IMG/VR virus record: IMGVR_UViG_3300006925_000169
Location: 1 to 22,415 of that record
From: a virus
Length of the DNA: 22,415 bases
Direction: 5' to 3' (one strand)
Positions 2,884 to 21,325 of this stretch are shown one piece after another; within the stretch, counting starts at the first letter, position 1; each line of letters begins with the position of its first letter. Made by a program: the position numbers and the translations under genes. Below the pieces are notes generated by a model. The model was not told where the DNA came from. It made no database searches and was given only the letters and a program-made list of their open reading frames with translations.

Positions 2884-4415
2884 TAGTAATATCCGCCTCT
2901 GCGCCTATACATTGCATCTTCTTCCTCTTCGTCCGAAGGCAACCTTATGAATCCACCTTTTCTGAACCGCATCATTGCTAGAGACACGGAGTCCACATAG
3001 TCATCATGCTCGCCTGCGGGGAAGCTCGCAACCTCATCAATCACCTCCTCCGCCCACTGACTGTTGGGCGCCCAGACCATACCCGAAGCGAACAGGTCTG
3101 ATACCGCGTTGAGCCTACTTATCTTGTCGTTACCTCTGGTCGGAGTGTACTCCTGCACCGGTATACCCATCGCTCGCAGCTCGTATATCAGCGGCGACCC
3201 CGAGGCTTTTTTCTCCACAATGAGAGCGTCAGGCTCCCACCCGTAATACTGGTCCACTGCCGTCTTCTTCAGCGTCGGGAACTCCATTCGCTCCCTGTAC
3301 GCGTTGAGCAGTATAATATTAGCCCTGTTCACCCCTTCTGCGTCGGGCTGGTAGAACACACCCCACGTAGTACAGGCTGAGTAGTCCGACCGGTTAGTCT
3401 TCTCGAACGCCGTATCCCACGACTGCAGGATGAAGTCTACCGGTGGTGGGTCCTCTTTCTCCCACGTTTGCCACCAATCTCGCTTGATTATGGCTGATGT
3501 CTCGGATGTCGGCTGCTGCTGGTACTGCGCCATCCACTTGCCGTTGGGCAGTTCTTCCCGTAGCGCCTTAAGCTCTTCCTCCGACCAAAACTCAGGCCAC
3601 AGCGGGTTATCCGAGGGCATCAGGGCAGGGAACTCAATAACTTCCCACTCGTCTCCGCCTCGCTGGGCCGAAGACTTGAGCACCCTAGCTGTCAAATCCC
3701 TGAGCGACCAACGCGTCATTACGATCACGATAGCTCCGCCCGGCTGTAAACGCTGACGAGGACCCGAGGTGTACCACTCGTAAGTCTTGTCGTATATCTC
3801 TGGGCTAGTCTCAGCTAGCGCCGCCTCTTGTTCCGAGTGCGGGTCATCAATAATCAGTAGGTCCGCGCCCTTACCAGTTACCGCACCGCCCACACCGATA
3901 GCGAAATAGTCGCCACCCTTGCTCGTGTTCCATCGTCCTGCTGCCTTACTGTCGGCTGACAGGTGCAAATCAGGGAATATGTCGTGGTATATCTCCTGAT
4001 CCACTAAGTTACGTACTTTTCGACCGAAACCTACCGCAAGTTCTGCAGTGTGTGAGGTCTGGATAATCTTCTTGTGCGGATATTTACCCAAAAACCAAGC
4101 AGGCAGAAGATAAGAAGCAAACTCAGACTTAGTGTGACGAGGAGGCATATTGATAATAAGGCGCTTACACTCGCCCCGAGCCACTCGTTCAAACGCTTCG
4201 GCCATCTTTGCATGGTGTCTACCCGATATAAACGTAGGCCAGACCTGATTCGTGAAATCTAGGAACTTAGTCTGCGCTTTTTTCTGCTTTTTGAGCTTCG
4301 CTAAATGCTCAAGTTCGGCAAGCAGTTTCTCTTGTTCTGACTGCGATAGCAGAGGTAAGACAGTGGGGAGGTCCTTTAAAGACAGCCCGTCAAACGGAGA
4401 CGTCGAGTTCGTCAT
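2883..4415 (-). CDS. terL: Terminase large subunit
   Basis: A 510-residue packaging motor that translocates and cuts concatemeric DNA at the portal. The N-terminal ATPase has a Walker A-like PPRHTKS (residues 91-97), Walker B LLIIDDPHS (D190, D191) and the coupling motif VMTRW (232-236). The C-terminal RNase H-like nuclease has its acidic residues at SWDTAF (D333), LIVEKKASG (E401) and EHDDYVDS (D471/D472/D475). All expected motifs are present and the length is normal for the family. The first 26 nt overlap the end of terS, and the stop overlaps the portal ATG, so terS-terL-portal form one translationally coupled operon. Confidence 0.96.
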   Translation of the reverse strand: MTNSTSPFDGLSLKDLPTVLPLLSQSEQEKLLAELEHLAKLKKQKKAQTKFLDFTNQVWPTFISGRHHAKMAEAFERVARGECKRLIINMPPRHTKSEFASYLLPAWFLGKYPHKKIIQTSHTAELAVGFGRKVRNLVDQEIYHDIFPDLHLSADSKAAGRWNTSKGGDYFAIGVGGAVTGKGADLLIIDDPHSEQEAALAETSPEIYDKTYEWYTSGPRQRLQPGGAIVIVMTRWSLRDLTARVLKSSAQRGGDEWEVIEFPALMPSDNPLWPEFWSEEELKALREELPNGKWMAQYQQQPTSETSAIIKRDWWQTWEKEDPPPVDFILQSWDTAFEKTNRSDYSACTTWGVFYQPDAEGVNRANIILLNAYRERMEFPTLKKTAVDQYYGWEPDALIVEKKASGSPLIYELRAMGIPVQEYTPTRGNDKISRLNAVSDLFASGMVWAPNSQWAEEVIDEVASFPAGEHDDYVDSVSLAMMRFRKGGFIRLPSDEEEEDAMYRRRGGYY

Positions 4416-5052
4416 CTTCTGCCTCCACGTCTTCTTCTACGTCTGCATCTTCTATATCTTCGCCAAGCACTCCTAAAGCGTCGTCTAATCTAGACTTCGT
4501 ATCGTCTTCAAGCACGCCCAACTGCTCGTCCAAGGGGACTGTTTCTACCACAGTTGCGTTAAGCAGGTTCTTCACCCGCTCCTTAATCGCGCTTTCTAAG
4601 TCTTCAGGGTTCTTATAGTTTATCGTTACCTCACTGCGTTCAGTGAAGATACCAATGTCGCTATGCTTACCGAGTAGCTCAAGTGCTTTCAGCTCGTACC
4701 TTGGGTCGCCGCAGTCGGCAATCTCCATGAGCTTATTCGTAATAGCAGCGCGAGCTTGGGCCGCGTCCATAGCCAGTTGTTGGCCGTAGGAGCGTAAAAA
4801 GGCAGCCGCAGCAAAAGCTGTGGTCTGATTAGACAGGTTGGTGGGCTTTTTGGATTCCGCCACAGCCCGCAGGAGTTCTTTCTCCCGCTCTACATCCCCT
4901 TCGCTAATATCGAGGGATGCACCCAATGATTCTTGAAGTTCTGCCGTATTTCCGGCAACAGCCATCTCTTCCAAGAGAGTACTAGGCTTCTCTTCGGCCA
5001 GATCGTAAGGGACCTTGTGGTCCTTAGTTGGCTCCACTTTTACAGTAGGCAT
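4390..5052 (-). CDS. terS: Terminase small subunit
   Basis: A 220-residue protein immediately upstream of terL and overlapping it by 26 nt, the usual terS-terL order. The central part (about residues 70-125) is helical and Ala-rich and is followed by YELKALELLGKHSDIGIF, a pattern typical of phage small terminases, where this helix precedes the oligomerisation domain. The last ~35 residues are almost entirely acidic and probably disordered. Small terminases recognise the packaging site on phage DNA and load TerL. In many phages that site lies in or next to terS, which makes the repeat-rich DNA just upstream (5053-5600) a candidate. The ATG at 5052 has only a weak Shine-Dalgarno. Confidence 0.78.
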   Translation of the reverse strand: MPTVKVEPTKDHKVPYDLAEEKPSTLLEEMAVAGNTAELQESLGASLDISEGDVEREKELLRAVAESKKPTNLSNQTTAFAAAAFLRSYGQQLAMDAAQARAAITNKLMEIADCGDPRYELKALELLGKHSDIGIFTERSEVTINYKNPEDLESAIKERVKNLLNATVVETVPLDEQLGVLEDDTKSRLDDALGVLGEDIEDADVEEDVEAEDDELDVSV

Positions 5053-5121
5053 ATGTTTTCGCAGGTAAAAATACCGAGTTGGGCGCAGTGTAAGTCATTG
5101 CTACAGCAGGTGCAAGCGTTC

Positions 5122-5187
5122 TGGGTACAGAAAGCATTGGTGGGTACGTAGACGGTATTAGTACCCATTTTGGGTATGTCGTGGGTA
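5122..5187. repeat. Cluster of TGGGTA boxes, one inverted
   Basis: TGGGTA occurs at 5122, 5141, 5171 and 5182 on the plus strand, and inverted (TACCCA) at 5162. The last inverted/direct pair forms TACCCA-TTT-TGGGTA (5162-5176). The cluster lies 70-135 bp upstream of the terS start, so it may be an operator or protein-binding array for the packaging operon or a packaging site. No promoter for the minus-strand genes is clear here. Confidence 0.5.
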
Positions 5188-5204
5188 ATAAAATCAATAA
5201 GTTA
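5187..5204 (-). repeat. Inverted copy of 18-bp repeat (16/18 match)
   Basis: Read on the minus strand this is TAACTTATTGATTTTATT, differing at two positions from the two perfect copies at 5389 and 5463. It lies 20 bp left of the tRNA-T-arm-like segment, on the opposite side from the perfect copies. Confidence 0.65.
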
Positions 5205-5223
5205 CACGTACAAAAATATTTTA

Positions 5224-5238
5224 GAGGGATTCGAACTC
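5224..5238 (-). other. tRNA T-arm-like segment; possible attP core
   Basis: Read on the minus strand the segment is GAGTTCGAATCCCTC, which contains the canonical T-loop GTTCGAATC plus a 3' stem half. No complete tRNA can be folded: the 5' T-stem half does not pair properly and no matching acceptor strand exists upstream. An isolated 3'-tRNA fragment in phage DNA, flanked by short repeats, is the usual look of an attachment site for integration into a host tRNA gene. No integrase is present in this window, so this is a hypothesis. Confidence 0.35.
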
Positions 5239-5257
5239 ACCCTTTGGGTCCCTTGAC

Positions 5258-5327
5258 GGGGGGTGTTTCTGTGTGCGCGGGGGGTGGGGTCTGGCAGATG
5301 GGAAATAAAAAGATAGGGGGTGGGGGG
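5258..5327 (+). other. G-run-rich segment
   Basis: Six runs of 3-6 G lie on the plus strand (5258-5263, 5279-5284, 5286-5289, 5300-5302, 5316-5320, 5322-5327) and no supported gene covers them. The arrangement could form intramolecular G-quadruplexes with longer loops. Open frames crossing it on the minus strand are low-complexity and rejected. Confidence 0.5.
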
Positions 5328-5388
5328 TAAAGAGAGGTAAGCTGATGAGTTGCTTGCTGTGAAAACTTTCTGTAATTTTTGTTGCGCG

Positions 5389-5406
5389 TAAGTCATTGAT
5401 TTTATT
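5389..5406 (+). repeat. 18-bp direct repeat, copy 1
   Basis: TAAGTCATTGATTTTATT, identical to the copy at 5463-5480, with 74 bp start to start. The first ten bases (TAAGTCATTG) occur again at 5091-5100. Candidate binding site for an integrase arm domain, the small terminase or a regulator. Confidence 0.75.
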
Positions 5407-5419
5407 AGTAAGACGGAAA

Positions 5420-5460
5420 GTAGGACTACGGGGAAGGCGGGACTATCCAAAAAGTCCTAC
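5420..5460. repeat. 8-bp inverted repeat between the direct repeats
   Basis: GTAGGACT (5420-5427) pairs with AGTCCTAC (5453-5460) across a 25-nt G-rich loop. The second arm ends 2 bp before direct-repeat copy 2. It could be a hairpin or a protein-binding dyad. Confidence 0.5.
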
Positions 5461-5462
5461 GC

Positions 5463-5480
5463 TAAGTCATTGATTTTATT
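5463..5480 (+). repeat. 18-bp direct repeat, copy 2
   Basis: A perfect second copy of TAAGTCATTGATTTTATT, in the same orientation as the copy at 5389. Confidence 0.75.
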
Positions 5481-5569
5481 GGGAAGTGGTTTTTAAGTTT
5501 GTCAGGGTGTGTGATGTAATGTGCAAACTATTATGTATATACAAGCTATGGTACCTGACTGACACAAGT

Positions 5570-5592
5570 GGGGGGTGGGGGAGGGGTGGGGG
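5570..5592 (+). other. Strong G-quadruplex motif upstream of a promoter
   Basis: Four G-runs of 6, 5, 4 and 5 bases (5570-5575, 5577-5581, 5583-5586, 5588-5592) are separated by single bases T, A and T. One-base loops favour a very stable parallel G-quadruplex in the plus strand. It ends 14 bp before the -35 of the promoter at 5607. Confidence 0.7.
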
Positions 5593-5606
5593 TCGCCGAG
5601 GCCGAT

Positions 5607-5634
5607 TTGACTTTGTACCACGATTTGCTATTAT
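5607..5634 (+). promoter_or_regulatory. Sigma70-type promoter with a GTACCAC box in the spacer
   Basis: -35 TTGACT (5607-5612), 16-bp spacer, -10 TATTAT (5629-5634). The spacer carries one GTACCAC half-site (5615-5621), at a place similar to the full palindrome in the two stronger promoters at 6874 and 9039. Transcription would start near 5641 and read through the palindrome into the gene at 5711. Confidence 0.6.
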
Positions 5635-5672
5635 ATACCCAAGTCGAGCGCACGCGGCGCTTGGCATAATCA

Positions 5673-5691
5673 AACCTACACGTTGTAGGTT
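5673..5691. repeat. 19-bp palindrome copy 1 (loop CGT)
   Basis: AACCTACA-CGT-TGTAGGTT, with perfect 8-bp arms. It lies about 30 nt after the predicted transcription start and 7 bp before the GGAG (5698-5701) of the next gene. Only this copy and the one at 6252 have CGT in the centre, and the two bracket the same gene. Confidence 0.9.
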
Positions 5692-5710
5692 CCATTTGGA
5701 GATCGAAATC

Positions 5711-6253
5711 ATGACTAAAAAAACTACTGCTACTGTAACACCCGTACCCGCTGCTGATTTAACTGAGTTTCAAGCGGCTATTGCGAACGATGTTAAAACC
5801 GCCGTCAAATCTATGACATCCGGCCGCGAAGTCGCCGCTGCATATGACGCGCGCTTTCCTTTCAATTGGACGCTATTTAAAGGAAACAAGAAGGCGGAAA
5901 ATTGCGGCATGAGCGCCGAGGAGTATAAGGCCGTCCGCGATGCGCGCACCGAGTATCGCGATGCTTGGAACAACGCGGAAGACGAAAACGGCAATCCCGT
6001 CAAACTGTATTCATTCGATCGCCGCTGGCAGTATATAACCGAAACCAGCACGCACGCACCGGAAGCCGAGGAAAGCGAAGCCGAGGAAAGCGAGAGCGAT
6101 GCGCCGAGCGCTAAGACGAAAGCCGAGCAGTGCCAAGCCGCGCTTGAAAACGCGCTGCGCTACGCTACGCATGAGGAGTTTGACGGCAATATCTGCACCG
6201 CCGAGGCGATCCGCGAAGCGCTGAAGCTAAATGGATGGACGGAAGCCGAGTAA
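5711..6253 (+). CDS. Unknown 180-aa protein of a stand-alone cassette
   Basis: I do not recognise this protein. It starts at ATG 5711 with GGAG nine bases upstream; the open frame extends further 5' but that part is low-complexity. The N-terminal half (about residues 15-115) is a mixed, aromatic-containing, probably folded region (PFNWTLFKGNKK, YKAVRDARTEYRDAW, YSFDRRWQYI). Residues ~120-140 are an acidic, repetitive linker (EAEESEAEESES). The last ~40 residues look like a small helical domain. Its codons are richer in GCC, GCG, GAG and CGC than those of its neighbours. It has its own promoter upstream and a terminator 23 bp after its stop, with a palindrome on each side. It therefore looks like an independently expressed accessory (moron-type) gene. 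Confidence 0.75.
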   Translation: MTKKTTATVTPVPAADLTEFQAAIANDVKTAVKSMTSGREVAAAYDARFPFNWTLFKGNKKAENCGMSAEEYKAVRDARTEYRDAWNNAEDENGNPVKLYSFDRRWQYITETSTHAPEAEESEAEESESDAPSAKTKAEQCQAALENALRYATHEEFDGNICTAEAIREALKLNGWTEAE

Positions 6254-6270
6254 CCTACACGTTGTAGGTT
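6252..6270. repeat. 19-bp palindrome copy 2 (loop CGT)
   Basis: AACCTACA-CGT-TGTAGGTT. It overlaps the last two bases of the TAA stop of the preceding gene and lies 6 bp before a terminator hairpin, so it closes the cassette opened by copy 1. Confidence 0.9.
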
Positions 6271-6275
6271 CAACC

Positions 6276-6300
6276 GCCGCCCTACGGGGCGGCATCTTTT
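6276..6300 (+). terminator. Rho-independent terminator of the cassette
   Basis: Stem GCCGCCC (6276-6282) / GGGCGGC (6287-6293), tetraloop TACG, then ATCTTTT. It lies 23 bp after the stop of the 180-aa gene. Confidence 0.85.
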
Positions 6301-6414
6301 CGGAGTGTTTGCGATGGTTTAATTTCGGCGAGTAACTCTCGCTAGGGACAACGAGCATAGGAGCGCGCCGCTGTAACGCGTAAGGAAAGAGCCTGTCTAA
6401 GTGTTCGCCCACCC
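6301..6414 (+). ncRNA. Possible small RNA between two terminators
   Basis: No open frame with a start and ribosome site fits here. Yet the stretch ends in a strong terminator (6415-6444) that is separate from the one at 6276-6300. It contains a hairpin GCGAG-TAACT-CTCGC and a GCGCGCCGC...GCG segment. A second terminator with no gene before it suggests either a short non-coding transcript or a back-up terminator for read-through. No convincing promoter was found, so this is weak. Confidence 0.2.
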
Positions 6415-6444
6415 AAGCCCACCAGTAAAACGGTGGGCTTTTTT
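6415..6444 (+). terminator. Strong rho-independent terminator
   Basis: Stem AAGCCCACC (6415-6423) / GGTGGGCTT (6432-6440) with an 8-nt loop, running into a T-tract to 6444. The stem is nine base pairs. It insulates the early-promoter region from anything upstream. Confidence 0.9.
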
Positions 6445-6456
6445 GTGTCTGGCTCT

Positions 6457-6471
6457 CGCGAAATTTTCGCG
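6457..6471. repeat. 15-bp palindrome CGCGAAATTTTCGCG
   Basis: Seven-bp arms around a single central T, 13 bp after the terminator. It occurs once in the window. Candidate protein-binding site. Confidence 0.5.
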
Positions 6472-6600
6472 GTGATAGTAGTTGATGATAGTTGTTGCAG
6501 GTAGAAGCTGCTGCTGTACCACTGTTTGCTGCTGTTGTACCACAATGTTACACGGTAATCCTAACATTATGTTTAAGTTGCGCCTGTAAGTTGCTGAAGT

Positions 6601-6873
6601 ACAAGGAGAAAGTCGTATTATTACATTATTATGCGTTTTTAGAGCGTACTCCCATAAATACCTAGTCTCTTCCCCTCTCTCGCATAAGTCGGAAAACCCA
6701 TTAAGTATGAAACTATGTCGTGCTCTTCTCTATTTTACATAATAATATAATAATATAAGAAAAACCCTCTACAGCCCTTTGTTTACGCGGCCTCTTCACG
6801 TACCACATTATTATAGCCCCTCGTAATAATCGTATAATAATACCCGCTTATTTATAACAATACCCCGCCCGAC
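6601..6873. other. AT-rich non-coding region; candidate replication origin or promoter region
   Basis: No supported gene. The stretch holds several ATTATTA/TAATAAT tracts (6615-6632, 6737-6759, 6806-6842), which should melt easily, interleaved with GTACCAC boxes. Easily melted tracts beside iteron-like boxes and a strong promoter fit either a phage origin or an early-promoter region. Nothing in the sequence decides between them. Confidence 0.4.
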
Positions 6874-6902
6874 TTGACAAACGTACCACACTGTGGTACA
6901 AT
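6874..6902 (+). promoter_or_regulatory. Strong promoter with a palindromic operator, drives the 7005-13480 operon
   Basis: Consensus -35 TTGACA (6874-6879), ideal 17-bp spacer, -10 TACAAT (6897-6902). The spacer and the start of the -10 are occupied by the perfect palindrome GTACCACACTGTGGTAC (6883-6899). A protein bound there would block RNA polymerase, so the promoter is probably repressible. The predicted start is near 6909, about 60 nt before palindrome copy 3. Confidence 0.85.
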
Positions 6903-6969
6903 ATACTAAATACTAGAGAATCGTACCACGCTCTCGTATAACAATACCTAAGCAGTACCACAGAAAACC

Positions 6970-6988
6970 AACCTACAATTTGTAGGTT
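6970..6988. repeat. 19-bp palindrome copy 3 (loop ATT)
   Basis: AACCTACA-ATT-TGTAGGTT, followed directly by CAACAGGAGAACGACC and the ATG at 7005. It lies in the leader of the transcript from the 6874 promoter. Confidence 0.92.
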
Positions 6989-7004
6989 CAACAGGAGAAC
7001 GACC

Positions 7005-7217
7005 ATGAAGTTATTTGATTTCATTTTGCAGAACGACCCGAGCCTAGTAGACGCACAGCTTATCTGTGTGGACGGCGCAATATTCAGCGAAAGCGAGGTA
7101 ACCGAGCAACCCAAGCCAACCCACTCTCGAGCTGAGGGCGACCCAATCAATGGCGTGCAGGTTTGGTATGACTACGCCGCCGACTATTATTTCTTCGAGG
7201 AAGTCGAAGAGGCGTAA
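7005..7217 (+). CDS. Unknown 70-aa acidic protein, first gene of the early operon
   Basis: I do not recognise this protein. It has 70 residues and a good Shine-Dalgarno (AGGAGAAC) a few bases before the ATG. It is acidic, with an aromatic cluster near the C-terminus (VWYDYAADYYFFEEVEE). No signal peptide or membrane helix is visible. It is the first reading frame behind the strong repressible promoter and is bracketed by palindrome copies 3 and 4. Small acidic early phage proteins often bind host factors, but no specific function can be claimed. Confidence 0.75.
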   Translation: MKLFDFILQNDPSLVDAQLICVDGAIFSESEVTEQPKPTHSRAEGDPINGVQVWYDYAADYYFFEEVEEA

Positions 7218-7219
7218 CC

Positions 7220-7238
7220 AACCTACAACTTGTAGGTT
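7220..7238. repeat. 19-bp palindrome copy 4 (loop ACT)
   Basis: AACCTACA-ACT-TGTAGGTT, 2 bp after a stop codon and followed by AAACAGGAGAACACT before the ATG at 7254. Confidence 0.92.
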
Positions 7239-7253
7239 AAACAGGAGAACACT

Positions 7254-7457
7254 ATGGCGACATGCAGAGTGTGCAGTGAGCAGTACCACGATCAGCGCAG
7301 AGCAGCGGGATTCACAACCTGCCTATCATGCGGTGAGCGTGCAGCAAAGCAAGCGCGGATGGGATGGTGCGTTGCCCAAGAGTACAGCAAGGGTAACTAC
7401 CAGTTAATCACCAACCCAGATACGCTTAAGACAACCAACCCTAAGAGGACGACATGA
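7254..7457 (+). CDS. Small zinc-finger-like protein, 67 aa
   Basis: A 67-residue basic protein with two CxxC knuckles, CRVC (residues 4-7) and CLSC (23-26), 15 residues apart. This is the spacing of a small zinc ribbon or treble-clef finger. Similar short CxxC...CxxC proteins are common in phage early regions, usually without known function; DNA, RNA or host-protein binding is plausible. The C-terminal half is Thr/Asn/Lys-rich and probably disordered. The stop overlaps the next ATG (ATGATGA), so the two genes are translationally coupled. Confidence 0.78.
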   Translation: MATCRVCSEQYHDQRRAAGFTTCLSCGERAAKQARMGWCVAQEYSKGNYQLITNPDTLKTTNPKRTT

Positions 7458-7708
7458 TGAATAAGAAAGTAGAAGAATTGCGAAAGATGGCTGAAGGTAA
7501 GGAAAAGATACACGAGCGCATGACCAAGTGGCGCACCGACCAGATATGTTTCCCGCGTGACCTTAACATCCACGACCCAGAGAACCGCTACCGTTGGGCA
7601 GACGAGGCAGCACCTGTGCCTGCTTTGGTATGGGCAGGCCGCGCACTGTTCACCGTTGGCTTTCTGACAGGCATCTACTGCCTAGTGTTTTTGGGGATGT
7701 TGCTATGA
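7454..7708 (+). CDS. Small protein with one C-terminal membrane helix, 84 aa
   Basis: An unrecognised 84-residue protein. Residues 1-55 are charged and hydrophilic. Residues ~56-84 (from PALVWAGRALFTVGFL to the C-terminus) form one hydrophobic helix of about 25 residues with no charged tail after it. This predicts a tail-anchored protein with its N-terminus in the cytoplasm. It overlaps the genes on both sides by 4 nt. A single terminal helix could also suit a holin or an inhibitor of a membrane process, but the gene lies in the early operon and is not beside a lysis gene, so no function is assigned. Confidence 0.75.
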   Translation: MMNKKVEELRKMAEGKEKIHERMTKWRTDQICFPRDLNIHDPENRYRWADEAAPVPALVWAGRALFTVGFLTGIYCLVFLGMLL

Positions 7709-7890
7709 GAGAAGGATTCAAGACCTACGCTGACAGTCTGCCAGAAGCAGATGATGTAGCTACTAATAGTAAAGCAGGCATAACGCTAGGTGAGTTACTG
7801 GCGGAGTACGACTTAGGCGTGCTCAAGCGGTGGGCGGCAGACCAACATGCCGCAGACAAGGCACAGGAAGTGCCAGAGAAAAGAAAGTAA
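7705..7890 (+). CDS. Unknown 61-aa protein
   Basis: An unrecognised 61-residue, charged, helical protein. The start is the ATG at 7705, which shares the ATGA with the stop of the previous gene; longer versions of this frame lie inside that gene and are rejected. The segment ITLGELLAEYDLGVLKRWAADQ has a helix-turn-helix look but is too short to call. The C-terminus is Lys/Glu-rich. It is the last gene of the group that starts at palindrome copy 4. Confidence 0.65.
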   Translation: MREGFKTYADSLPEADDVATNSKAGITLGELLAEYDLGVLKRWAADQHAADKAQEVPEKRK

Positions 7891-7901
7891 ACCAACCAAC
7901 T

Positions 7902-7920
7902 AACCTACAATTTGTAGGTT
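7902..7920. repeat. 19-bp palindrome copy 5 (loop ATT)
   Basis: AACCTACA-ATT-TGTAGGTT, followed by CAACAGGAGAACGACA and the ATG at 7937. Apart from one base near the ATG, the palindrome and its following 16 bases match copy 3. Confidence 0.92.
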
Positions 7921-7936
7921 CAACAGGAGAACGACA

Positions 7937-8857
7937 ATGTTCGGAAACGTAACTGATCTACCCCAACTGCACACCTACCGTGCAGCCCTGATGCACTACA
8001 ACTCAATCACCCCGATACGGGGCAGCGACAACCTACGGCCTATATGCAACACGGCCAACGGAAGGCGCAAGAAGCACATGCAGATCGTTAGAGTCTCATA
8101 CCCGTCGAAGCAGGGTGCGCTTGATGCGGTGGCTTGCAGATTGTATGACACTGACGTGGTGACCTTCCTGTCTAATGGGGAGATTATTATCAACCTCGAA
8201 GGGTGGAGCACTAACACCACGCATAGCTTCATCGATGGCCTATTCATGCCGACCGCCTACTACAGCCGCTCATTAGTGCGAGCTTACAGTCGCAAGGGCA
8301 ACACCGTCATTGAGCTTAAGAATGCTACAACAGTGATTAAGGACGACAACGTCGTGAAGATACGCATGGTCGAGGGGACGGACACGCAGGGTAAATACTT
8401 CGAGTTTGTCGATGCACCCAAGCAGTACGGCTACTACCTCAAGCGCGCCCAGATGGGGATGCGGCGCAAGGAGGTGGAGAAGTTCACCAAGTTCGCCCGA
8501 GCCGCGGCCAAGATGATCGACCCAGAGACTTACGAGGATAAGACTTGGAGTACGTTCGACGGGCGCACGACCATAACCGCAGGGCAGCTGCACGCCCTCA
8601 TGCTAGACCAGTCCCAGTGGGACGAGGCGCTAGACTACCTGCTACCTATGGCCTTGCACTCGGAGTATCAGTATGCGCCTCCGGCCAACACATATAAGCG
8701 CGTCAAATCAATAAAGCCTGCAACGCTGACCAAGAAGGTCGACGACGTGCTCAAGTATATGTTCGCGGAGGACTTGTTCGAGGAACGGGAGACTAACAAC
8801 CCGCTATCTAACGACAACGCCAAGTATCTCACCGGTGCGGAGGCGGTAATCGAATGA
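7937..8857 (+). CDS. Unknown 306-aa phage protein
   Basis: I do not recognise this 306-residue protein. It is soluble and without signal peptide or membrane segments. The first half (about residues 48-155) looks like a beta-rich domain with alternating hydrophobic strands (DVVTFLSNGEIIINLEGW, GNTVIELKNATTVIKDDNVVKIRMV). The second half is helical, with a basic stretch KRAQMGMRRKEVEKFTKFARAAAKM (residues ~168-192). It starts a coupled pair with the 62-residue gene downstream (ATGA overlap) and sits directly before the ATPase/VWA group, so it may act with them. That is inference from position only. Confidence 0.78.
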   Translation: MFGNVTDLPQLHTYRAALMHYNSITPIRGSDNLRPICNTANGRRKKHMQIVRVSYPSKQGALDAVACRLYDTDVVTFLSNGEIIINLEGWSTNTTHSFIDGLFMPTAYYSRSLVRAYSRKGNTVIELKNATTVIKDDNVVKIRMVEGTDTQGKYFEFVDAPKQYGYYLKRAQMGMRRKEVEKFTKFARAAAKMIDPETYEDKTWSTFDGRTTITAGQLHALMLDQSQWDEALDYLLPMALHSEYQYAPPANTYKRVKSIKPATLTKKVDDVLKYMFAEDLFEERETNNPLSNDNAKYLTGAEAVIE

Positions 8858-9042
8858 GCACTCTAATCAAAGCTAAGACTCAAACCCTTGTGACTACTGG
8901 AGAAATACTAAGCGATGCAAGTGGTCGCAAGATGTACCTTCGAGGGATGCACAACAACAAGCTGCTCGTCGTCTCGATGGACGAGCGCAAGGTACACATG
9001 ACAGCCAAGCCCGAGCAGTTCGGGTGTGAGGTGTTAACTTGA
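8854..9042 (+). CDS. Unknown 62-aa protein
   Basis: An unrecognised 62-residue basic protein, probably beta-rich (MYLRGMHNNKLLVVSMDERKVHM). It overlaps the 306-aa gene by ATGA. Its TGA stop (9040-9042) is part of the -35 hexamer of the next promoter, so its 3' end is fixed by the promoter sequence. Confidence 0.68.
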   Translation: MSTLIKAKTQTLVTTGEILSDASGRKMYLRGMHNNKLLVVSMDERKVHMTAKPEQFGCEVLT

Positions 9043-9068
9043 CATTCTGTACCACACTGTGGTACAAT
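9039..9068 (+). promoter_or_regulatory. Second operator-bearing promoter, before the ATPase gene
   Basis: -35 TTGACA (9039-9044), 18-bp spacer, -10 TACAAT (9063-9068). The same perfect palindrome GTACCACACTGTGGTAC (9049-9065) fills the spacer and enters the -10, as at 6874. The two promoters should therefore respond to the same repressor. It gives the MoxR/VWA genes their own expression inside the long operon. Confidence 0.85.
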
Positions 9069-9078
9069 GTACCTGTAG

Positions 9079-9133
9079 TTTGAAAACTGTAAGACTCTTT
9101 GAAAACTGTAAGACTCTTTGAAAACTGTAAGAC
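9079..9133 (+). repeat. Three tandem 19-bp repeats in an mRNA leader
   Basis: TTTGAAAACTGTAAGACTC is repeated at 9079-9097 and 9098-9116, with a third copy (17 of 19 bp) at 9117-9133. It lies just after the predicted start (~9075) of the 9039 promoter and before palindrome copy 6. It could be a binding array for DNA or RNA, or a slippage-made spacer. Confidence 0.9.
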
Positions 9134-9142
9134 CAACTAACC

Positions 9143-9161
9143 AACCTACAAATTGTAGGTT
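9143..9161. repeat. 19-bp palindrome copy 6 (loop AAT)
   Basis: AACCTACA-AAT-TGTAGGTT, followed by ACAACTGGAGAACGACA and the ATG at 9179. Confidence 0.92.
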
Positions 9162-9178
9162 ACAACTGGAGAACGACA

Positions 9179-10243
9179 ATGAGTGAATCTTTATTGAACG
9201 AAACACGCACCGTAAGCCACAAGCAAGCGGCTGCACTTATCCTCGCCAACCCCAACGTGCGATACATGTTACGCGGCGAACCCGGGGTGGGTAAATCAAT
9301 GATTGCTGAGGCTATAGCAGCAGCAACGGGTTACGACCTATCAATGGTTGACGTACCCAACCTAGACCTCGGTGACGTGGCTATGCCTGTGATCGACCAT
9401 GCCGAGAAGGTCACACGCTACTACCCCAACGCACGGTTCGGTCTGACTACAGGTAAGCCTGTGGTGATCTGCCTCGATGAGTTTACCAAGGGCGCTGAGC
9501 CGGTGAAGAACATGCTTCACCCTATGCTAGAAGTATTTAGACCTAGACTAGGTGACCTCGACATACCCGAGGGAAGCATTATCTTTATGACGGGCAACAT
9601 GGACACTGACGGTGTGGGCGATGGTCTCGCTCAGCATACGAGGCAGCGTGTCGTTGAGCTTGTGATGCGCAAGCCTAACTCTACTGAGTGGCTACAGTGG
9701 GCAGCGGGCAATGGCATCCATCCTGTTGTTATGGCATGGGTAGATCGTTACCCGCAGGCGCTCGCGTCATACCTAGACGGGGCTAAGAACGAGTTCATAT
9801 TCCACCCTGCCAACCCGCAGGACAACGTGGTCTCGCCTCGTACGCTTGAGATAGCTAGTCGCATCATCTGGCAGATGGAGCACTTCGACTCTGACTCTCT
9901 TACTGCTTCGCTGACAGGTGCAGCCGGTGCGTCGTTTGCGGAATCTATCTCTTCCTTTATTAGATTCCAAGAAAGCCTGCCGTCTGTAAGTTCTATTGTT
10001 ACCACGCCTGCCACTGCGCTAATACCAGAAGATGCCGGTGCACGGGCTGTCCTTACGTTCGGACTGCTACAGCATGTAGAGAAGGACAACCTGAGTAATA
10101 TTCTCAAGTACCTGCGCCGCATGGAGGAGGAGTTCCAAGTGATTTTCTGTGTGTCACTGGCTCGCCACAAGACTAAGAGCCAGATTGCGTTCACTAACAG
10201 CGAGTTCGCACTGTGGGCGGCTGACAACGAAGACCTACTGTAA
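9179..10243 (+). CDS. MoxR-type AAA+ ATPase
   Basis: A 354-residue AAA+ ATPase. It shows Walker A GEPGVGKS (residues 33-40), Walker B VVICLDEF (95-102, D100/E101) and a sensor-1-like IIFMTGN near residue 142. The helical second half ends at the stop without an added domain. MoxR-family ATPases act with a VWA-domain partner, as in RavA-ViaA, CbbQ-CbbO and the CobS-CobT chelatase pair. They remodel or load metals into target proteins using ATP. Exactly such a partner is the next gene, 29 bp downstream. The gene has its own repressible promoter and a good GGAGAAC ribosome site. The target in phage infection is unknown. Confidence 0.9.
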   Translation: MSESLLNETRTVSHKQAAALILANPNVRYMLRGEPGVGKSMIAEAIAAATGYDLSMVDVPNLDLGDVAMPVIDHAEKVTRYYPNARFGLTTGKPVVICLDEFTKGAEPVKNMLHPMLEVFRPRLGDLDIPEGSIIFMTGNMDTDGVGDGLAQHTRQRVVELVMRKPNSTEWLQWAAGNGIHPVVMAWVDRYPQALASYLDGAKNEFIFHPANPQDNVVSPRTLEIASRIIWQMEHFDSDSLTASLTGAAGASFAESISSFIRFQESLPSVSSIVTTPATALIPEDAGARAVLTFGLLQHVEKDNLSNILKYLRRMEEEFQVIFCVSLARHKTKSQIAFTNSEFALWAADNEDLL

Positions 10244-10261
10244 ACCTACAATATGTAGGTT
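10243..10261. repeat. 19-bp palindrome copy 7 (loop ATA)
   Basis: AACCTACA-ATA-TGTAGGTT. Its first base is the last base of the ATPase TAA stop, and it is followed at once by GGAGAACAACT and the ATG at 10273. Confidence 0.92.
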
Positions 10262-10272
10262 GGAGAACAACT

Positions 10273-11472
10273 ATGCTTGTAGATAGAAAATTCAAAGCGA
10301 TCAAGATCGGGCTTATGCGCTCTAAACAGTTCGGTCTACTGCGCGGTGTGGCTATGCACGGTAACACTTACCTGACTACTGACGTGCCTACCGCAGCAAC
10401 TAACGGGCGCGACTGTTGGTTCAATCCAGACTTCCTGTTCAACACAGTGAAGAATGAGGACGACAAGGGCGCGGCGTTTATCATGGTGCACGAGTGGCTG
10501 CACAAGGCAGGTATGCACATGGTGACTTACCGTAGGCTTGCCGAGCAGCACGCTATGCGTACCAACATGGCGACTGACTATTGGATAAACGACCGCATCA
10601 TTGTGGCTGACCCCGAGCACGCCCTGACCGAAATGCCTGTGGATGGGACGGGCAAAGCGATAGGACTGTACGACCCGAAGTATCACGAGTGGACGGTCAA
10701 ACGCATCTTCCGAGACCTTGAGCAGGAGCAAGAGGAAGGCGGTGGTGGCGAGGGCGACGACGGTGACGCAGGGTTCGACAACCACGACTGGGAGAGTGCA
10801 AAGGACATGGGTACTGAGGAGAAGGAGAAACTTGCTGAGGACATCAAGCAAGCTATCCGCCAAGGACTCCATGCAGATGCTAAAGCAGGACAAGACAGCC
10901 TGCAGGACGCTCTCGGTCTAAGCGAGCTAGTCACACCCAAGGTGAGCTGGCGGACACTGCTGCGCATGTTTATGAACTCGACATGTAGAAAGAAGGAGCA
11001 GTCTACTTGGCGCCGACCAAGCCGTAGGTTTCTGCACCAAGACATTGTGATGCCAACACTGCAAGGTAACAGCATCAACGAGGTGGTGATTGCGCGTGAT
11101 ACTTCGGGTTCGATGTTCTTCGCAGACCGACTGCGAGACGTGACCAGTGAGATCATTGGTATTGCTAAGGCAGTCTCTATCGACAAGATACACTTCATTG
11201 ATTGGGACGGGCAGGTGGAGAACCACGAGGTTTATTCTAGTGACTCTCTGAACAATGCACCTGCTATGAAAACTGCAACGGGTGGAGGCGGGACAGACCC
11301 GACGTGTGTATCCGACTACCTAAAAGAGAAGGGCATCAAGCCTGACTGTGTAATCATGCTGACCGATGGTGAGATTTACAACTGGGGGAATTGGACTGTT
11401 CCAATTCTGTGGGCAATAACTAACGACACGAAAATAACCGCCCCTGTGGGCAAGACAATTCAAATTGATTAA
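10273..11472 (+). CDS. Zincin-like/VWA protein (DUF2201-type), partner of the MoxR ATPase
   Basis: A 399-residue protein with two recognisable parts. The N-terminal part carries HEWLH (residues 73-77), a fit to the HExxH zinc-peptidase motif, followed by KAGMH and then NMATDYWIND. This is the order seen in DUF2201-type putative metallopeptidase domains. An acidic Gly/Glu-rich linker (about residues 152-175) precedes the C-terminal VWA domain with a complete MIDAS: DTSGS (D276, S278, S280), T341 in GGGGTD and D365 in LTDGE. VWA domains bind Mg2+ and protein partners. In the MoxR-VWA systems the VWA protein is the adaptor or effector of the ATPase. Whether the zincin part cleaves proteins is unknown, although the motif is intact. 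It lies between the ATPase and a DUF3150-like gene. Confidence 0.88.
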   Translation: MLVDRKFKAIKIGLMRSKQFGLLRGVAMHGNTYLTTDVPTAATNGRDCWFNPDFLFNTVKNEDDKGAAFIMVHEWLHKAGMHMVTYRRLAEQHAMRTNMATDYWINDRIIVADPEHALTEMPVDGTGKAIGLYDPKYHEWTVKRIFRDLEQEQEEGGGGEGDDGDAGFDNHDWESAKDMGTEEKEKLAEDIKQAIRQGLHADAKAGQDSLQDALGLSELVTPKVSWRTLLRMFMNSTCRKKEQSTWRRPSRRFLHQDIVMPTLQGNSINEVVIARDTSGSMFFADRLRDVTSEIIGIAKAVSIDKIHFIDWDGQVENHEVYSSDSLNNAPAMKTATGGGGTDPTCVSDYLKEKGIKPDCVIMLTDGEIYNWGNWTVPILWAITNDTKITAPVGKTIQID

Positions 11473-11490
11473 ACCTACAAATTGTAGGTT
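11472..11490. repeat. 19-bp palindrome copy 8 (loop AAT)
   Basis: AACCTACA-AAT-TGTAGGTT. It overlaps the last base of the preceding TAA stop and is followed at once by GGAGAAGAGTG and the ATG at 11502. Confidence 0.92.
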
Positions 11491-11501
11491 GGAGAAGAGT
11501 G

Positions 11502-12353
11502 ATGAGTGCAATAGCAAACAGTGCAGTATTGGTTAAGTTAAACATCAGTGTGTGGGGCGCAACTAAGCGCAACAAGCAGCTAGAGCAGGAGATAGCAGCA
11601 AGTAAGAACGCCGACCCCAAAGCTACGCGTGCATACGATGAACTCATGGTGGGTTCGTCGGGCCATAAGGACATACAGAAGTACGCAGGCAACTCTCGAC
11701 TGTGGCATTCAGCAATGACACTGCCATGGGATGACAAAGGGTGGAGGCTATGCCCGACTAGTCTGTTCATAGACTACAAGCAGCAGCACAACTGGAAGCG
11801 CCAAGAGTTCGAGCGGCAGGTCAATCAGTTCAGAGACAAGTACGCAGTGTATCGGGAGGTGGCCAGAGAGTATCGCGGTGACATATTCAACGAGGCTGAC
11901 TACCCTCCGGTGGAGGAGGTGATGGGCAAGTACGCTTGGAATTTTGCCGTTGCACCTGTTCCGTCTGGGGGCCACTTGTGCATAGACCTGCCAGAGCAGG
12001 AGATGCAAGAGCTACGCTCCGCCTGTGATGACGAGGTAGAACGCAGGGTACAGGAAGCGGTGAAGGAGAGTGAGCGCAGATTGCGTAAGCAGCTCGACCA
12101 CATCAGCGAGAAGTGCGCGGGGGCAGACGACGATGACAAACGGTGGCATGATACTTTTGTATCTAACCCATTGGAGTTATGCCGCATGCTTAAGCACATG
12201 AATGTTACCAAAGACCCCAAGCTAGAAGAGGCACGCAAGAAGCTAGAGGAGATCATGGAGGGCAAGACCAAGGAGATGTTCAAGGATAAGCCCGAAGTGC
12301 GTGAAGAAGTTAAGAAAGAAGTAGACGAAATCATCAAAACCTACGAGTGGTAA
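11502..12353 (+). CDS. DUF3150-like protein, third member of the ATPase/VWA group
   Basis: A 283-residue soluble protein. It begins with a short beta segment ending in ISVWGATKRNKQLEQEI and has a conserved-looking GWRLCPTSLFIDY near residue 80; the rest is mostly long charged helices, likely coiled coil (about residues 90-130 and 165-205). This layout and its place after a MoxR ATPase and a VWA protein match DUF3150 proteins of phages and mobile elements, whose function is unknown. ATG 11502 is preferred over GTG 11499 because it lies 7 bases after GGAG. The C-terminus is a Lys/Glu-rich helix. The family call rests on layout and context more than on diagnostic motifs. Confidence 0.6.
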   Translation: MSAIANSAVLVKLNISVWGATKRNKQLEQEIAASKNADPKATRAYDELMVGSSGHKDIQKYAGNSRLWHSAMTLPWDDKGWRLCPTSLFIDYKQQHNWKRQEFERQVNQFRDKYAVYREVAREYRGDIFNEADYPPVEEVMGKYAWNFAVAPVPSGGHLCIDLPEQEMQELRSACDDEVERRVQEAVKESERRLRKQLDHISEKCAGADDDDKRWHDTFVSNPLELCRMLKHMNVTKDPKLEEARKKLEEIMEGKTKEMFKDKPEVREEVKKEVDEIIKTYEW

Positions 12354-12363
12354 GGAGAACAAC

Positions 12364-13308
12364 ATGGCTTTTACAGAAGTATATATCGCAAGAGGAGCAG
12401 CAGCACTTATCAGTGACCGGCTGAAAAACAACACAATGCACAGGTTTACCAACATGCCTGCAAATGTTTTTCATTGGCGCACCTTTGAGACTGCGGTGGA
12501 GTTTTCACCTAAGCGTCCTACCTTTGGTTACGCAGGAGGTACTAAGGCGCAGGAGCTGGTCTACAATTTACTGCGAAGCCTCGCACCGAAGATGCCGCAC
12601 TTAAACTTTTGCCTCGACCTCGACTATGACGTTGGGTTCTCAGAGATGTTTGTGTATGACGGACTAGAGTGCGTGGGACGCGTAGACTTTGCGGACACTG
12701 GCGCCCTTGAGTTCCGTAATGCACGGATAGGAGAGACCATGCTACGCAGAACCTCGATGAAAACGCTTAGCGTGAACAAGGCCGCGGCTATAATACGTAA
12801 GTATTTCTATGGCATGACTAAGATAGAAAAACTTGGCTCAGTAGCGTCCAAGATAACTTCGGCTATATCGTCGGCGCACAGTGACACTTCGTACAAGCGG
12901 CGTAGAGCTAAGAGCGCTGTGATGGAACAACTAGAGGAGGCTATCACAAGCAACTCGCAGCTATCACAAGCAGTGGCGCAGTTTTTCCAAGAGCAAGGCA
13001 AATCCCACGTACTGGATGCGTACATAGATGCTTCAGATACCCACGAGCTAGTGACCGAAGCGTACGCCATGCGCGGCGGAGAAACAGGCTTGTATGTACT
13101 AGCGCAGCCAGAAGAGTTCCACGTGTACCGCAAGGGCGACACCAGAGTTCGCACATTCAGACGTGAGCAACTGTCTGACAAAGCACGGGGCGCCTTGGGT
13201 ATGCTTAAGCTCTCAGAGAACAACAGCTTTGTAGATAACGTAGGCTTCAAATATGAAGCAGATAAATTTTGGGTAATGGAGGGGATTGCAAATGAATTCA
13301 ACAGTTAG
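12364..13308 (+). CDS. Unknown 314-aa protein at the end of the ATPase/VWA group
   Basis: I do not recognise this protein. It starts 10 bp after the DUF3150-like gene with AAGGAG upstream and no palindrome in between, so it is likely co-translated with that gene. The N-terminal ~130 residues are mixed alpha/beta (CLDLDYDVGFSEMFVYDGLECVGRVDF). The middle is helical, with a basic stretch YKRRRAKS near residue 180 and a repeat-like ITSNSQLSQAVAQFFQEQ. The C-terminal part looks beta-rich. No membrane or signal segment is seen. Its TAG stop overlaps the next gene by 17 nt. Its position suggests it works with the ATPase/zincin-VWA/DUF3150 proteins. Confidence 0.75.
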   Translation: MAFTEVYIARGAAALISDRLKNNTMHRFTNMPANVFHWRTFETAVEFSPKRPTFGYAGGTKAQELVYNLLRSLAPKMPHLNFCLDLDYDVGFSEMFVYDGLECVGRVDFADTGALEFRNARIGETMLRRTSMKTLSVNKAAAIIRKYFYGMTKIEKLGSVASKITSAISSAHSDTSYKRRRAKSAVMEQLEEAITSNSQLSQAVAQFFQEQGKSHVLDAYIDASDTHELVTEAYAMRGGETGLYVLAQPEEFHVYRKGDTRVRTFRREQLSDKARGALGMLKLSENNSFVDNVGFKYEADKFWVMEGIANEFNS

Positions 13309-13480
13309 ACGCAGAGGCGCAGGTACTAAGCCCGCTATGGTGCATACCAACGTGCGCCTGCCAGAGCATGTAGTAGATTACTTCAAAAACAATTTCACTA
13401 ACTACACTGCGGAGATACGCAGGGTGCTCGAAGCACACGTAGATGACGAATTAGTTTTCGGAGACGAACCCGCCAACTAA
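13292..13480 (+). CDS. Ribbon-helix-helix DNA-binding protein candidate, 62 aa
   Basis: A 62-residue basic protein. After a disordered Arg/Lys N-terminus comes HTNVRLPEHVVDYFKNNF, then NYTAEIRRVLEAHV. This is the beta-strand, helix, turn, helix pattern of Arc/MetJ/CopG-type repressors, with the VRLP strand that inserts into the DNA major groove. Such proteins dimerise and bind short palindromes. ATG 13292 is chosen because GGAGG lies 9 bases upstream; the TTG at 13286 is too close to it. It is the last gene of the operon and is followed at once by palindrome copy 9 and a terminator. It is the best candidate in the window for the protein that reads either palindrome family. Confidence 0.72.
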   Translation: MNSTVRRRGAGTKPAMVHTNVRLPEHVVDYFKNNFTNYTAEIRRVLEAHVDDELVFGDEPAN

Positions 13481-13497
13481 CCTACAATTTGTAGGTT
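13479..13497. repeat. 19-bp palindrome copy 9 (loop ATT)
   Basis: AACCTACA-ATT-TGTAGGTT. It overlaps the TAA stop of the ribbon-helix-helix gene and lies 7 bp before the operon terminator, mirroring copy 2. Confidence 0.92.
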
Positions 13498-13504
13498 CCC
13501 CTGA

Positions 13505-13527
13505 CCCCGCCAAGTGCGGGGTTTTTT
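13505..13527 (+). terminator. Rho-independent terminator of the early operon
   Basis: Stem CCCCGC (13505-13510) / GCGGGG (13516-13521), loop CAAGT, then six T (13522-13527). Confidence 0.92.
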
Positions 13528-13532
13528 ATGCC

Positions 13533-13561
13533 TTTACAAAGTCCAAACTATTCGCTATTCT
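13533..13561 (+). promoter_or_regulatory. Promoter for the nuclease/polymerase block
   Basis: -35 TTTACA (13533-13538), 17-bp spacer, -10 TATTCT (13556-13561). It starts 5 bp after the terminator T-tract. The first ATG is only 6 bp beyond the -10, so the transcript would be leaderless or nearly so. There is no GTACCAC operator here, so its control differs from that of the upstream promoters. Confidence 0.55.
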
Positions 13562-13567
13562 TCTTGA

Positions 13568-13900
13568 ATGGCTATGACTCCCGAGAAGAAAGTTAAGAAC
13601 AAAGTAGTGCGCTTACTCAAAGAGTACGGCGCGTATTACTTCTTCCCCGCATCGTACGGCATGGGCAGGAGCGGCGTCCCTGACATAGTGTGCTGCCTAC
13701 GCGGGTGCTTCATTGGCATCGAGTGCAAAGCAGGCAAGAACAAACCTACCCCCTTGCAAGAGAAAGAACTTGCAGACATTATAAAAGCCGGTGGCGTATC
13801 CTGCGTGATTAACGAGGACAACATGGCCGAGCTTGAATCTATTTTAACTACAGTGATGAGCAAGGATACTAATGATGGACTTACTGGTGGTCGACTTTGA
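13568..13900 (+). CDS. VRR-NUC nuclease (PD-(D/E)XK superfamily)
   Basis: A 110-residue nuclease with the motif line GVPDIVCCLRGCFIGIECKAG (about residues 36-56): the PD aspartate, then E-C-K as the (D/E)XK pair, followed by TPLQEKEL with the conserved Gln. This is the compact stand-alone VRR-NUC form found in many phages, related to the nuclease of FAN1 and to Holliday junction resolvases. It probably cleaves branched or flapped DNA during replication or packaging. There is no clear Shine-Dalgarno before ATG 13568, and a second in-frame ATG lies at 13574. Its end overlaps the polymerase gene by 29 nt. Confidence 0.9.
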   Translation: MAMTPEKKVKNKVVRLLKEYGAYYFFPASYGMGRSGVPDIVCCLRGCFIGIECKAGKNKPTPLQEKELADIIKAGGVSCVINEDNMAELESILTTVMSKDTNDGLTGGRL

Positions 13901-15725
13901 GACTTACTACGCGAAAGACTACGGACTACGCAAGCTAACTACAGAAGAATACATACGCGACCCACGCTTCGAGGTGATTGGCGTTGCGGTCAAGAACTAT
14001 CATCACTCCGCACAGCAAGAAGCTGCTGCCCCACTTTGGTTTACAGGATCAAAGAAACAGGTAGCAGAATTCCTTTCTCAGTTTGACTGGGAGAACTCAA
14101 TTGCTCTCGCTCATAATGCCATGTTTGATATGGCAATTCTTAACTGGCACTTTGGTATTAAGCCCAAGAAGATTGCAGATACTCTAGCAATGGCACGGGC
14201 TATCCACTCTATCGAAGTAGGTGGCAGTCTGGCCGCCCTCTCTGAATACTACGAGCTTGGCGCAAAAGGAACTGAGGTTCACGATGCAATAGGCAAGCGG
14301 CGCCTCGACTTCACCAAGGCAGAAATGGAAGCCTACGGAGGCTACTGCCAACAGGACGTGGAGCTGACCTACAAACTGTTCAAAGTGCTAGTCAAAGACT
14401 TCCCCGTATTCGAGCTTAACCTTATTGACCTGACCATCCGCATGTTTAGCGAGCCTAGTCTGGTGCTAGATAAAGACATACTGGAGGCCCACTTGAAGGA
14501 GGTTAAGGATACTAAAGAAGCACTAATGGCTAAGGTCACTCACGACAAGAAAAAGCTAACAAGCAACCCACAATTTGCCGAGCTACTGCGCTCGTATGGA
14601 ATCGAGCCGCCGACTAAGATAAGCCCCGCGACGGGCAAGGAAACCTTCGCCTTCGCTAAGAGTGACGAGGCATTCAAGGCACTGCAAGAGCACGAGAACC
14701 CAGAGGTACAGGCTATAGTTGCTGCCCGACTTGGGGTGCGCTCTACCATTGAAGAGACACGCACGCAGCGGTTTATCGACATTGCAGAACGTGGCACACT
14801 CCCTATCCCCTTGCGTTACTACGCGGCGCACACCGGACGGTGGGGTGGGGACGATAAGATCAACATGCAGAACCTACCCCGAGGCTCGCAGTTGAAGAAG
14901 GCAATGTGCGCACCACGCGGGTACAAGTTTATCGACTGTGACTTGTCGCAGATCGAAGCACGTACGCTAGCATGGCTAGCCGAGGAAGAGGACTTAGTAG
15001 AGGCTTTCGACAGGGGGGACGACGTGTATAAGATCATGGCGTCAGCTATCTACGATAAGCCCGAGACTGAGATAACTAAGGACGAGCGGTTCGTTGGTAA
15101 GACTACGATACTAGGAGCAGGCTACGGCATGGGGGCCGCTAAGTTCCAAGCACAGTTGAAAAACTTCGGGGTCTACTTAGAAGAGGAAGAATGCCAAAGG
15201 ATCATCGACGTATACCGTGATACATACCCAGAGATACCCGCCCTTTGGAGAGCTGCGAACAAGGCGCTCAAGACTATGATGGACGACGAGGTGGAGGAGC
15301 TAGGCCGCTCAGGTATCCTTACAGTTGAGGGTGATACAGGTATACGGCTACCGAACGGGCTGTACATAAAGTACCCCAACCTGCGAGTGCAGGAGGCAGA
15401 AGAGGAAGACGGGTACGACGAGACGGTTTACGACACCCGTAAGGGTAGAGCTATAATCCCCAACCGCATCTACGGTGGGAAGGTTATTGAGAACGTTTGT
15501 CAAGCATTGGCAAGGATTGTGATTGGCGAGCAGCTTCTTAGAGTTGCTAAGAAATACAAAGTTGTTATGACGGTGCACGATGCGATAGGCTGTATCGTCC
15601 CAGAAGATGAAGTAGAAGAGGCGATGCACCACGTTGAAGAAATAATGAAGGTGCGACCGACTTGGGCGCCCGACTTGCCTTTAGATTGCGAAGGCGGCTA
15701 CGGGAATTCATACGGAGAGTGTTAA
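13872..15725 (+). CDS. Family A DNA polymerase with 3'-5' exonuclease (Leu762 type)
   Basis: A 617-residue replicative polymerase. The DEDDy proofreading domain shows VDFET (D8, E10), HNAMFD (D86) and YCQQD (Y158, D162). The polymerase domain shows motif A CDLSQIEAR (catalytic D357), motif B R406-x3-K410-x3-L414-x3-Y418-G, and motif C TVHDAIG (D570). The residue aligned with Phe762 of E. coli Pol I is Leu414. In motif C the Glu after the catalytic Asp is replaced by Ala571. There is no 5'-3' exonuclease domain, as in most phage family A polymerases. It starts inside the end of the VRR-NUC gene (AAGGA about 8 bases before ATG 13872; ATG 13875 is also possible), so the two are coupled. Confidence 0.96.
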   Translation: MMDLLVVDFETYYAKDYGLRKLTTEEYIRDPRFEVIGVAVKNYHHSAQQEAAAPLWFTGSKKQVAEFLSQFDWENSIALAHNAMFDMAILNWHFGIKPKKIADTLAMARAIHSIEVGGSLAALSEYYELGAKGTEVHDAIGKRRLDFTKAEMEAYGGYCQQDVELTYKLFKVLVKDFPVFELNLIDLTIRMFSEPSLVLDKDILEAHLKEVKDTKEALMAKVTHDKKKLTSNPQFAELLRSYGIEPPTKISPATGKETFAFAKSDEAFKALQEHENPEVQAIVAARLGVRSTIEETRTQRFIDIAERGTLPIPLRYYAAHTGRWGGDDKINMQNLPRGSQLKKAMCAPRGYKFIDCDLSQIEARTLAWLAEEEDLVEAFDRGDDVYKIMASAIYDKPETEITKDERFVGKTTILGAGYGMGAAKFQAQLKNFGVYLEEEECQRIIDVYRDTYPEIPALWRAANKALKTMMDDEVEELGRSGILTVEGDTGIRLPNGLYIKYPNLRVQEAEEEDGYDETVYDTRKGRAIIPNRIYGGKVIENVCQALARIVIGEQLLRVAKKYKVVMTVHDAIGCIVPEDEVEEAMHHVEEIMKVRPTWAPDLPLDCEGGYGNSYGEC

Positions 15726-15730
15726 GTTTC

Positions 15731-17308: not shown

Positions 17309-17320
17309 TAGGAGGAAGCC

Positions 17321-17979: not shown

Positions 17980-17981
17980 AT

Positions 17982-19839: not shown

Positions 19840-19843
19840 GCTA

Positions 19844-21298: not shown

Positions 21299-21325
21299 CG
21301 CCCTAAACCTGACGCTAGCGAAACA

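Follow-up and report, generated by a model that had tools for sequence, protein, structure and literature searches.

The Arc and Mnt repressors of phage P22 are very small phage-encoded proteins that read DNA with a beta-strand head. Arc is encoded in the operon that it represses; the strand of Mnt is HFNFRMP, and the Mnt operator is GGTCCAC-GTGGACC. In ribbon-helix-helix (RHH) proteins, a strand pair inserts in the major groove, and the specificity of both Arc and Mnt is set by the strand (AmrZ paper, PMC3325190). HicB, an RHH antitoxin, acts as a repressor of its own promoter. Of the 15-bp operators bound by YpHicB3, the main one overlaps the -10 element, and BpsHicB binds a palindrome that likewise overlaps the -10 element (PMC11594946).

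We analyzed a phage contig, IMG/VR virus record IMGVR_UViG_3300006925_000169, whose full 22,415 nucleotides are called the window here. Its candidate repressor is a 62-aa RHH-like protein. The strand motif HxNxRxP of this protein (HTNVRLP) is that of Mnt at the reading positions, and the phage half-site has CCAC in common with the Mnt operator; we treat both likenesses as leads and not as tests. On the other hand, sequence searches with the 62-aa protein found neither Arc nor Mnt at significance, the window phage is unlike P22, and the ORFs examined in the window and in the near-identical record G394 included no integrase. The locus resembles HicB systems in that the same palindrome lies in two bacterial hicAB promoters (L015 and L017), but the phage protein is a lone 62-aa polypeptide without a HicB-like partner-binding domain and without an adjacent toxin gene. 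There is also a weak family similarity to BrnA antitoxins (PF14384; best E 0.0027 among relatives), although no BrnT toxin was identified and the protein of the window itself did not match the model. The 62-aa protein most likely works like P22 Arc or Mnt and would be a regulator of a known kind.

The phage contig and its operons

The minus strand of the window carries portal and terminase genes. From about 5.6 kb on, the plus strand encodes small early genes, a MoxR-type AAA ATPase, a DUF2201/VWA protein, DNA polymerase A, an exonuclease and a helicase. The window is 99.98–100% identical from position 6397 on to the 40.9-kb record G394, which additionally encodes structural genes, an endolysin, a primase/helicase, an SSB-like protein and a 77-aa HTH protein. 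Neither the Rfam scan nor the tRNA scan of the window gave a match. The intergenic DNA at 6260–6440, with a hairpin/terminator (6276) on one side and a terminator (6415) on the other, might encode a small RNA; it had no Rfam match.

Two plus-strand operons are of concern here. The first early operon (7005–9042) comprises four small ORFs, a 306-aa ORF and a separate 62-aa ORF, all without known functions. The second starts with the MoxR-type ATPase gene (9179–10243; Pfam AAA/AAA_5, phrog_1297), followed by the gene for a DUF2201 metallopeptidase-like/VWA protein (10273–11472; Pfam DUF2201_N and DUF2201), two further ORFs and, as its last gene, the RHH-like gene (13292–13480). An intrinsic terminator, GACCCCGCCAAGTGCGGGGTT with a T run (13503–13523, plus strand), directly follows and ends the operon. 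The order promoter, MoxR, DUF2201, two ORFs, RHH and terminator was kept in relatives. Three tandem 19-bp repeats of TTTGAAAACTGTAAGACTC occupy the leader of this transcript at 9079–9135.

One palindrome in two strong promoters

Promoter P6874 (6874–6902, plus strand) consists of TTGACA at 6874–6879, a 17-bp spacer and TACAAT at 6897–6902. Promoter P9039 (9039–9068, plus strand) has TTGACA at 9039–9044, an 18-bp spacer and TACAAT at 9063–9068. Both have TG before the -10 element and match the consensus at 11 of 12 positions; they ranked first and second in a promoter scan of 4400–22415 and were the only 11/12 promoters in it. Each contains the palindrome GTACCACA-C-TGTGGTAC, that is, the 17-mer GTACCACACTGTGGTAC with perfect 8-bp arms and one centre base, which spans 14 spacer bases and the first three bases (TAC) of the -10 element. 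The two copies, putative operator 1 at 6883–6899 and putative operator 2 at 9049–9065, are the only ones in the window: no other was found even when three mismatches were allowed with the centre fixed as C, and shuffled sequences gave a mean of 0.03 matches against the two perfect copies seen. An earlier, sequence-only reading had described one palindrome in the 17- and 18-bp spacers of two TTGACA...TACAAT promoters, and our coordinates and the top scan ranks agree with it.

From their positions, P6874 would start the first early operon, with the genes from 7005 on, and P9039 the operon running from MoxR to RHH. There is good support for a repressor operator in each of the two promoters: the promoter architecture is conserved, half-sites cluster nearby and the palindrome stands before RHH autorepressor or antitoxin genes elsewhere. 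The earlier description of a repressor-controlled layout was partly supported; its term "regulon" was generous, since the early regulatory region holds all of the sites, two of them perfect and the others partial.

A third, promoter-like element, P5607 (5607–5634, plus strand; TTGACT, 16-bp spacer, TATTAT), does have a GTACCAC half-site in its spacer, at 5615, as had been reported. Additional half-sites form a cluster at 6516–6961, with members at 6516, 6537, 6800, 6923 and 6955, which is partly kept in the relatives L003 and L023. Counting both orientations, we found seven half-sites in 6254–7004 against 0.13 expected, with the remaining window at chance level. The half-site at 6537 is part of an imperfect palindrome, GTACCACAATGTTACAC, which was seen as the third site of G394, and the other 26 kb of that record held three half-sites against 3.2 expected, which is the chance level.

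When the upstream region was aligned, L003 and L023 proved to have kept the half-sites at 6537, 6800, 6883 and 6923 while the adjacent bases differed. The half-site at 6955 was a tandem duplicate in L010 and was missing from L003. The half-site unit GCAGTACCACA occurs in tandem with 11-bp spacing in L010 (at about 800–830) and singly in the window (6955). Comparison of L010, the window and L003 thus indicates that operator half-sites are gained or lost as direct repeats.

A candidate repressor in the P9039 operon

It had been stated that no obvious full-size repressor gene is present in the window. This is literally true, but it overlooked the 62-aa candidate at 13292–13480, whose core is KPAMVHTNVRLPEHVVDYFKNNFTNYTAEIRRVLEAHV. 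Homologues occur in about 70 related contigs, in which an RHH-like gene closes the same operon; in the MoxR-linked set they lie several kilobases downstream of MoxR. An AlphaFold model of the monomer had an extended segment before residue 25 and helices at residues 25–34 and 38–57, with a pLDDT of 84–90 in the core and 73 overall. This agrees with the RHH arrangement, in which a short strand precedes two helices and the domain measures about 45–60 aa. DSSP did not mark the strand in the monomer, since RHH strands pair only in the dimer.

Database support for the fold was weak. No significant Pfam or PDB RHH match was obtained for the protein of the window itself, and a Foldseek search of its monomer model against the PDB returned zero matches, so the RHH assignment rests on the secondary-structure pattern and on weak family matches. 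The family matches, although weak, were consistent with one another: phrog_4692 ("antitoxin") was matched weakly by 25 of the 37 RHH-like family members (best 1.4e-4), and BrnA_antitoxin by the proteins of four relatives, at the best E of 0.0027 given above. The sole PDB sequence match was 2q2k (E 0.69), which we take to be the RHH protein ParR. One match in the phage database INPHARED was an Agrobacterium phage protein annotated as a BrnA-like antitoxin. Taken as a reading of sequence and model, membership of the 62-aa protein in the RHH (MetJ/Arc) superfamily is likely.

As with Arc, the gene of the candidate repressor lies in an operon whose promoter has a palindrome between its -35 and -10 elements, and we infer that the 62-aa protein reads the P9039 palindrome. 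No toxin gene was recognized beside the RHH gene, where the preceding 314-aa ORF had no Pfam match even at E 10 and a terminator follows. The RHH gene is therefore not a toxin-antitoxin module.

Conservation of the site in relatives

An exact search for the 17-mer returned ten related contigs and two unrelated ones. In the relatives, the palindrome occupied the same two promoters with the same spacing; the flanks had diverged and the centre base was C or G. The P6874 core was kept in L003, L010 and L023, and the P9039 promoter was present in all close relatives. Across the 80 contigs with a MoxR gene that we examined, the full palindrome was found in all those with MoxR at least 85% identical, wherever the promoter was on the contig. 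In five diverged contigs (L044, L045, L046, L050 and L052), GTACCACA-N-TGTGATA lay in a strong promoter, which was located upstream of MoxR or at a greater distance from it. Still more distant relatives kept the right half alone, TTGTGGTATAAT, which an extended -10 element alone could explain. Left and right arms in the spacers of distant relatives were no more complementary than shuffled controls; given this negative covariation test, we do not claim a palindromic operator there.

Presence of the operator could be compared with the strand of the neighbouring RHH-like protein. The operator promoter was present at 24 of 38 loci with strand HxNxR, many of the remainder being short contigs; the true exceptions were L047–L049, which have strand HVNVR without the full palindrome. 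It was present at none of the 34 loci with xxSxR, in which Ser replaces Asn. Two string matches among the xxSxR loci lacked the right arm and a -10 element. On a MoxR-protein tree, the Asn/Ser state of the strand changed twice, giving two independent contrasts, L050 versus L042/L043 and L052 versus the Ser clade. Averaged over random pairings, the operator tracked the strand in 1.6 of the two contrasts, with both contrasts agreeing in most pairings, and never went the opposite way; two contrasts are too few for significance. These data yield a testable strand-to-operator rule, with Asn or Ser in the strand set against the presence of GTACCACA.

The same 17-mer in other genomes

In a genome collection, the palindrome with a -35 element in front was found at four places (L015–L018). 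Two of these, L015 and L017, are hicAB promoters, whose HicA and HicB were confirmed by Pfam; at L016 the palindrome has an HTH-looking gene on one side and a membrane-protein gene on the other; and L018 is a relative of the window phage. The L018 sequence is labelled as an uncultured proteobacterium, and in it a clpB-like bacterial gene continues in frame from the 5' end of the phage MoxR gene, so it looks like an assembly chimera.

Two viral contigs, L006 and L116, also have the 17-mer directly before RHH-looking genes. Among 391 genomes surveyed in the class to which the L017 genome belongs, there was one new match, L120, with a TTGACA promoter before an RHH-looking gene; among 369 genomes in the class of L015, the seed was the only 17-mer match. 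Pfam searches with the RHH-looking genes of L006, L116 and L120 returned no significant match, and their assignments rest on sequence reading. Beyond the clade of the window, there are thus five unrelated contexts in which the 17-mer directly precedes RHH-looking genes (L006, L116 and L120) or lies in hicAB promoters (L015 and L017). The strand residues of the RHH genes differ in these other contexts (RxR, QxR, NxR), so the same palindrome may have been reached there convergently. The matches point to a single 17-bp operator word that recurs before unrelated RHH genes in different bacteria and phages.

Other matches were less informative. In L005 the promoter is the same and the third gene looks like an RHH gene, which Pfam did not confirm. 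The site was also present in L114 and in L115, the latter with the same promoter layout, and no nearby RHH gene was recognized in either. The viral contig L114 has two tandem palindromes about 23 bp apart (1764), one perfect and one GTACCACAACGTGGTAG. A match inside a coding region (L113) was discarded as chance. Named phage and plasmid collections, searched for near-identity and with the short promoter, held no match, and a literature text search for the motif returned unrelated sequences only.

Proposed mechanism and rival explanations

We consider it probable that the 17-bp palindrome is the operator of the phage-encoded 62-aa RHH protein, an Arc/Mnt-like autorepressor that would turn off both early operons. 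Host sigma-70 RNA polymerase would start the two operons at P6874 and P9039. With its gene last in the P9039 operon, the repressor would appear after read-through and accumulate late. Two dimers would then occupy the two GTACCACA arms, covering the spacer together with the upstream end of the -10 element, and the bound repressor would shut both promoters, its own included, as a delayed negative feedback on early genes. The extra half-sites may perhaps serve cooperative binding. If this is correct, a group of uncultivated MoxR/DUF2201-encoding phages gains a likely regulator together with its operator and the operons that it controls.

The main rival reader is the 77-aa Cro/CI-type HTH protein of the phage. 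The gene of this HTH_3 protein lies between the SSB-like and primase/helicase genes, just outside the window at about 1–2 kb past its right end (G394/L123). The protein has an HTH_3 match at E 3.8e-7 as well as matches to phage repressor PHROGs, and it is kept in close relatives. Cro/CI-type HTH proteins typically bind palindromes of 14–17 bp, and the L016 palindrome adjoins a divergent HTH-looking gene. The 77-aa gene, however, neither lies in nor adjoins an operator-bearing operon; the 17-mer adjoins RHH genes in five unrelated contexts but an HTH gene in one, and its presence follows the RHH strand motif, all of which makes this reading unlikely. A regulator encoded by the host, such as the cell's own HicB or another repressor, might instead read the site, the phage borrowing a host signal that would set the timing of its early genes or hold them back. 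In favour of such a reader, the same 17-mer, apart from its centre base, drives bacterial hicAB and RHH promoters of other phyla. In those cases, however, the reader is presumably encoded beside the site. The phage has its own RHH gene in the operon, and the 17-mer is very rare in bacterial genomes; we regard borrowing of this kind as quite improbable.

The palindrome might also be no operator at all, with TGTGGTACAAT merely a strong extended -10 element (TGTGn) and the left arm incidental. This would fit the distant relatives, which keep the right half TTGTGG-TATAAT while the left half varies and pairs no better than shuffled sequence. A promoter element does not need a mirror arm, however, and the clade of the window keeps the left arm GTACCACA perfectly in two promoters and across relatives, with isolated GTACCAC half-sites clustered upstream. 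We give this reading the least credence. Nearly as doubtful is a single operator common to phage early promoters and bacterial hicAB promoters, through which a host HicB or cellular RHH protein would silence phage early genes or the phage RHH protein would silence a host toxin-antitoxin operon. If true, it would mean phage-antitoxin regulatory cross-talk built on one operator word.

Hairpins at gene starts

A separate set of repeats was seen at many early genes, where hairpins with 8-bp stems and variable loops lie just upstream of the Shine-Dalgarno sequence. The hairpin AACCTACA-NNN-TGTAGGTT has nine copies in the window, at 5673, 6252, 6970, 7220, 7902, 9143, 10243, 11472 and 13479; seven of the nine are just upstream of a Shine-Dalgarno sequence and start codon, and two are right at a stop codon before a terminator. 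This word was absent from the structural half of G394. A hairpin word common to gene starts is more unusual than the operator finding and perhaps worth more. The arms are identical among nearly all gene starts of one region, and related phages use other arms, fully compensated. Arm words across related phages were AACCTACA, AACCTATA, AAGCTAGG, AACCTAGA, AACATTGA and GCGTACGG, and L039 has one hairpin word in its early region and another in its MoxR operon.
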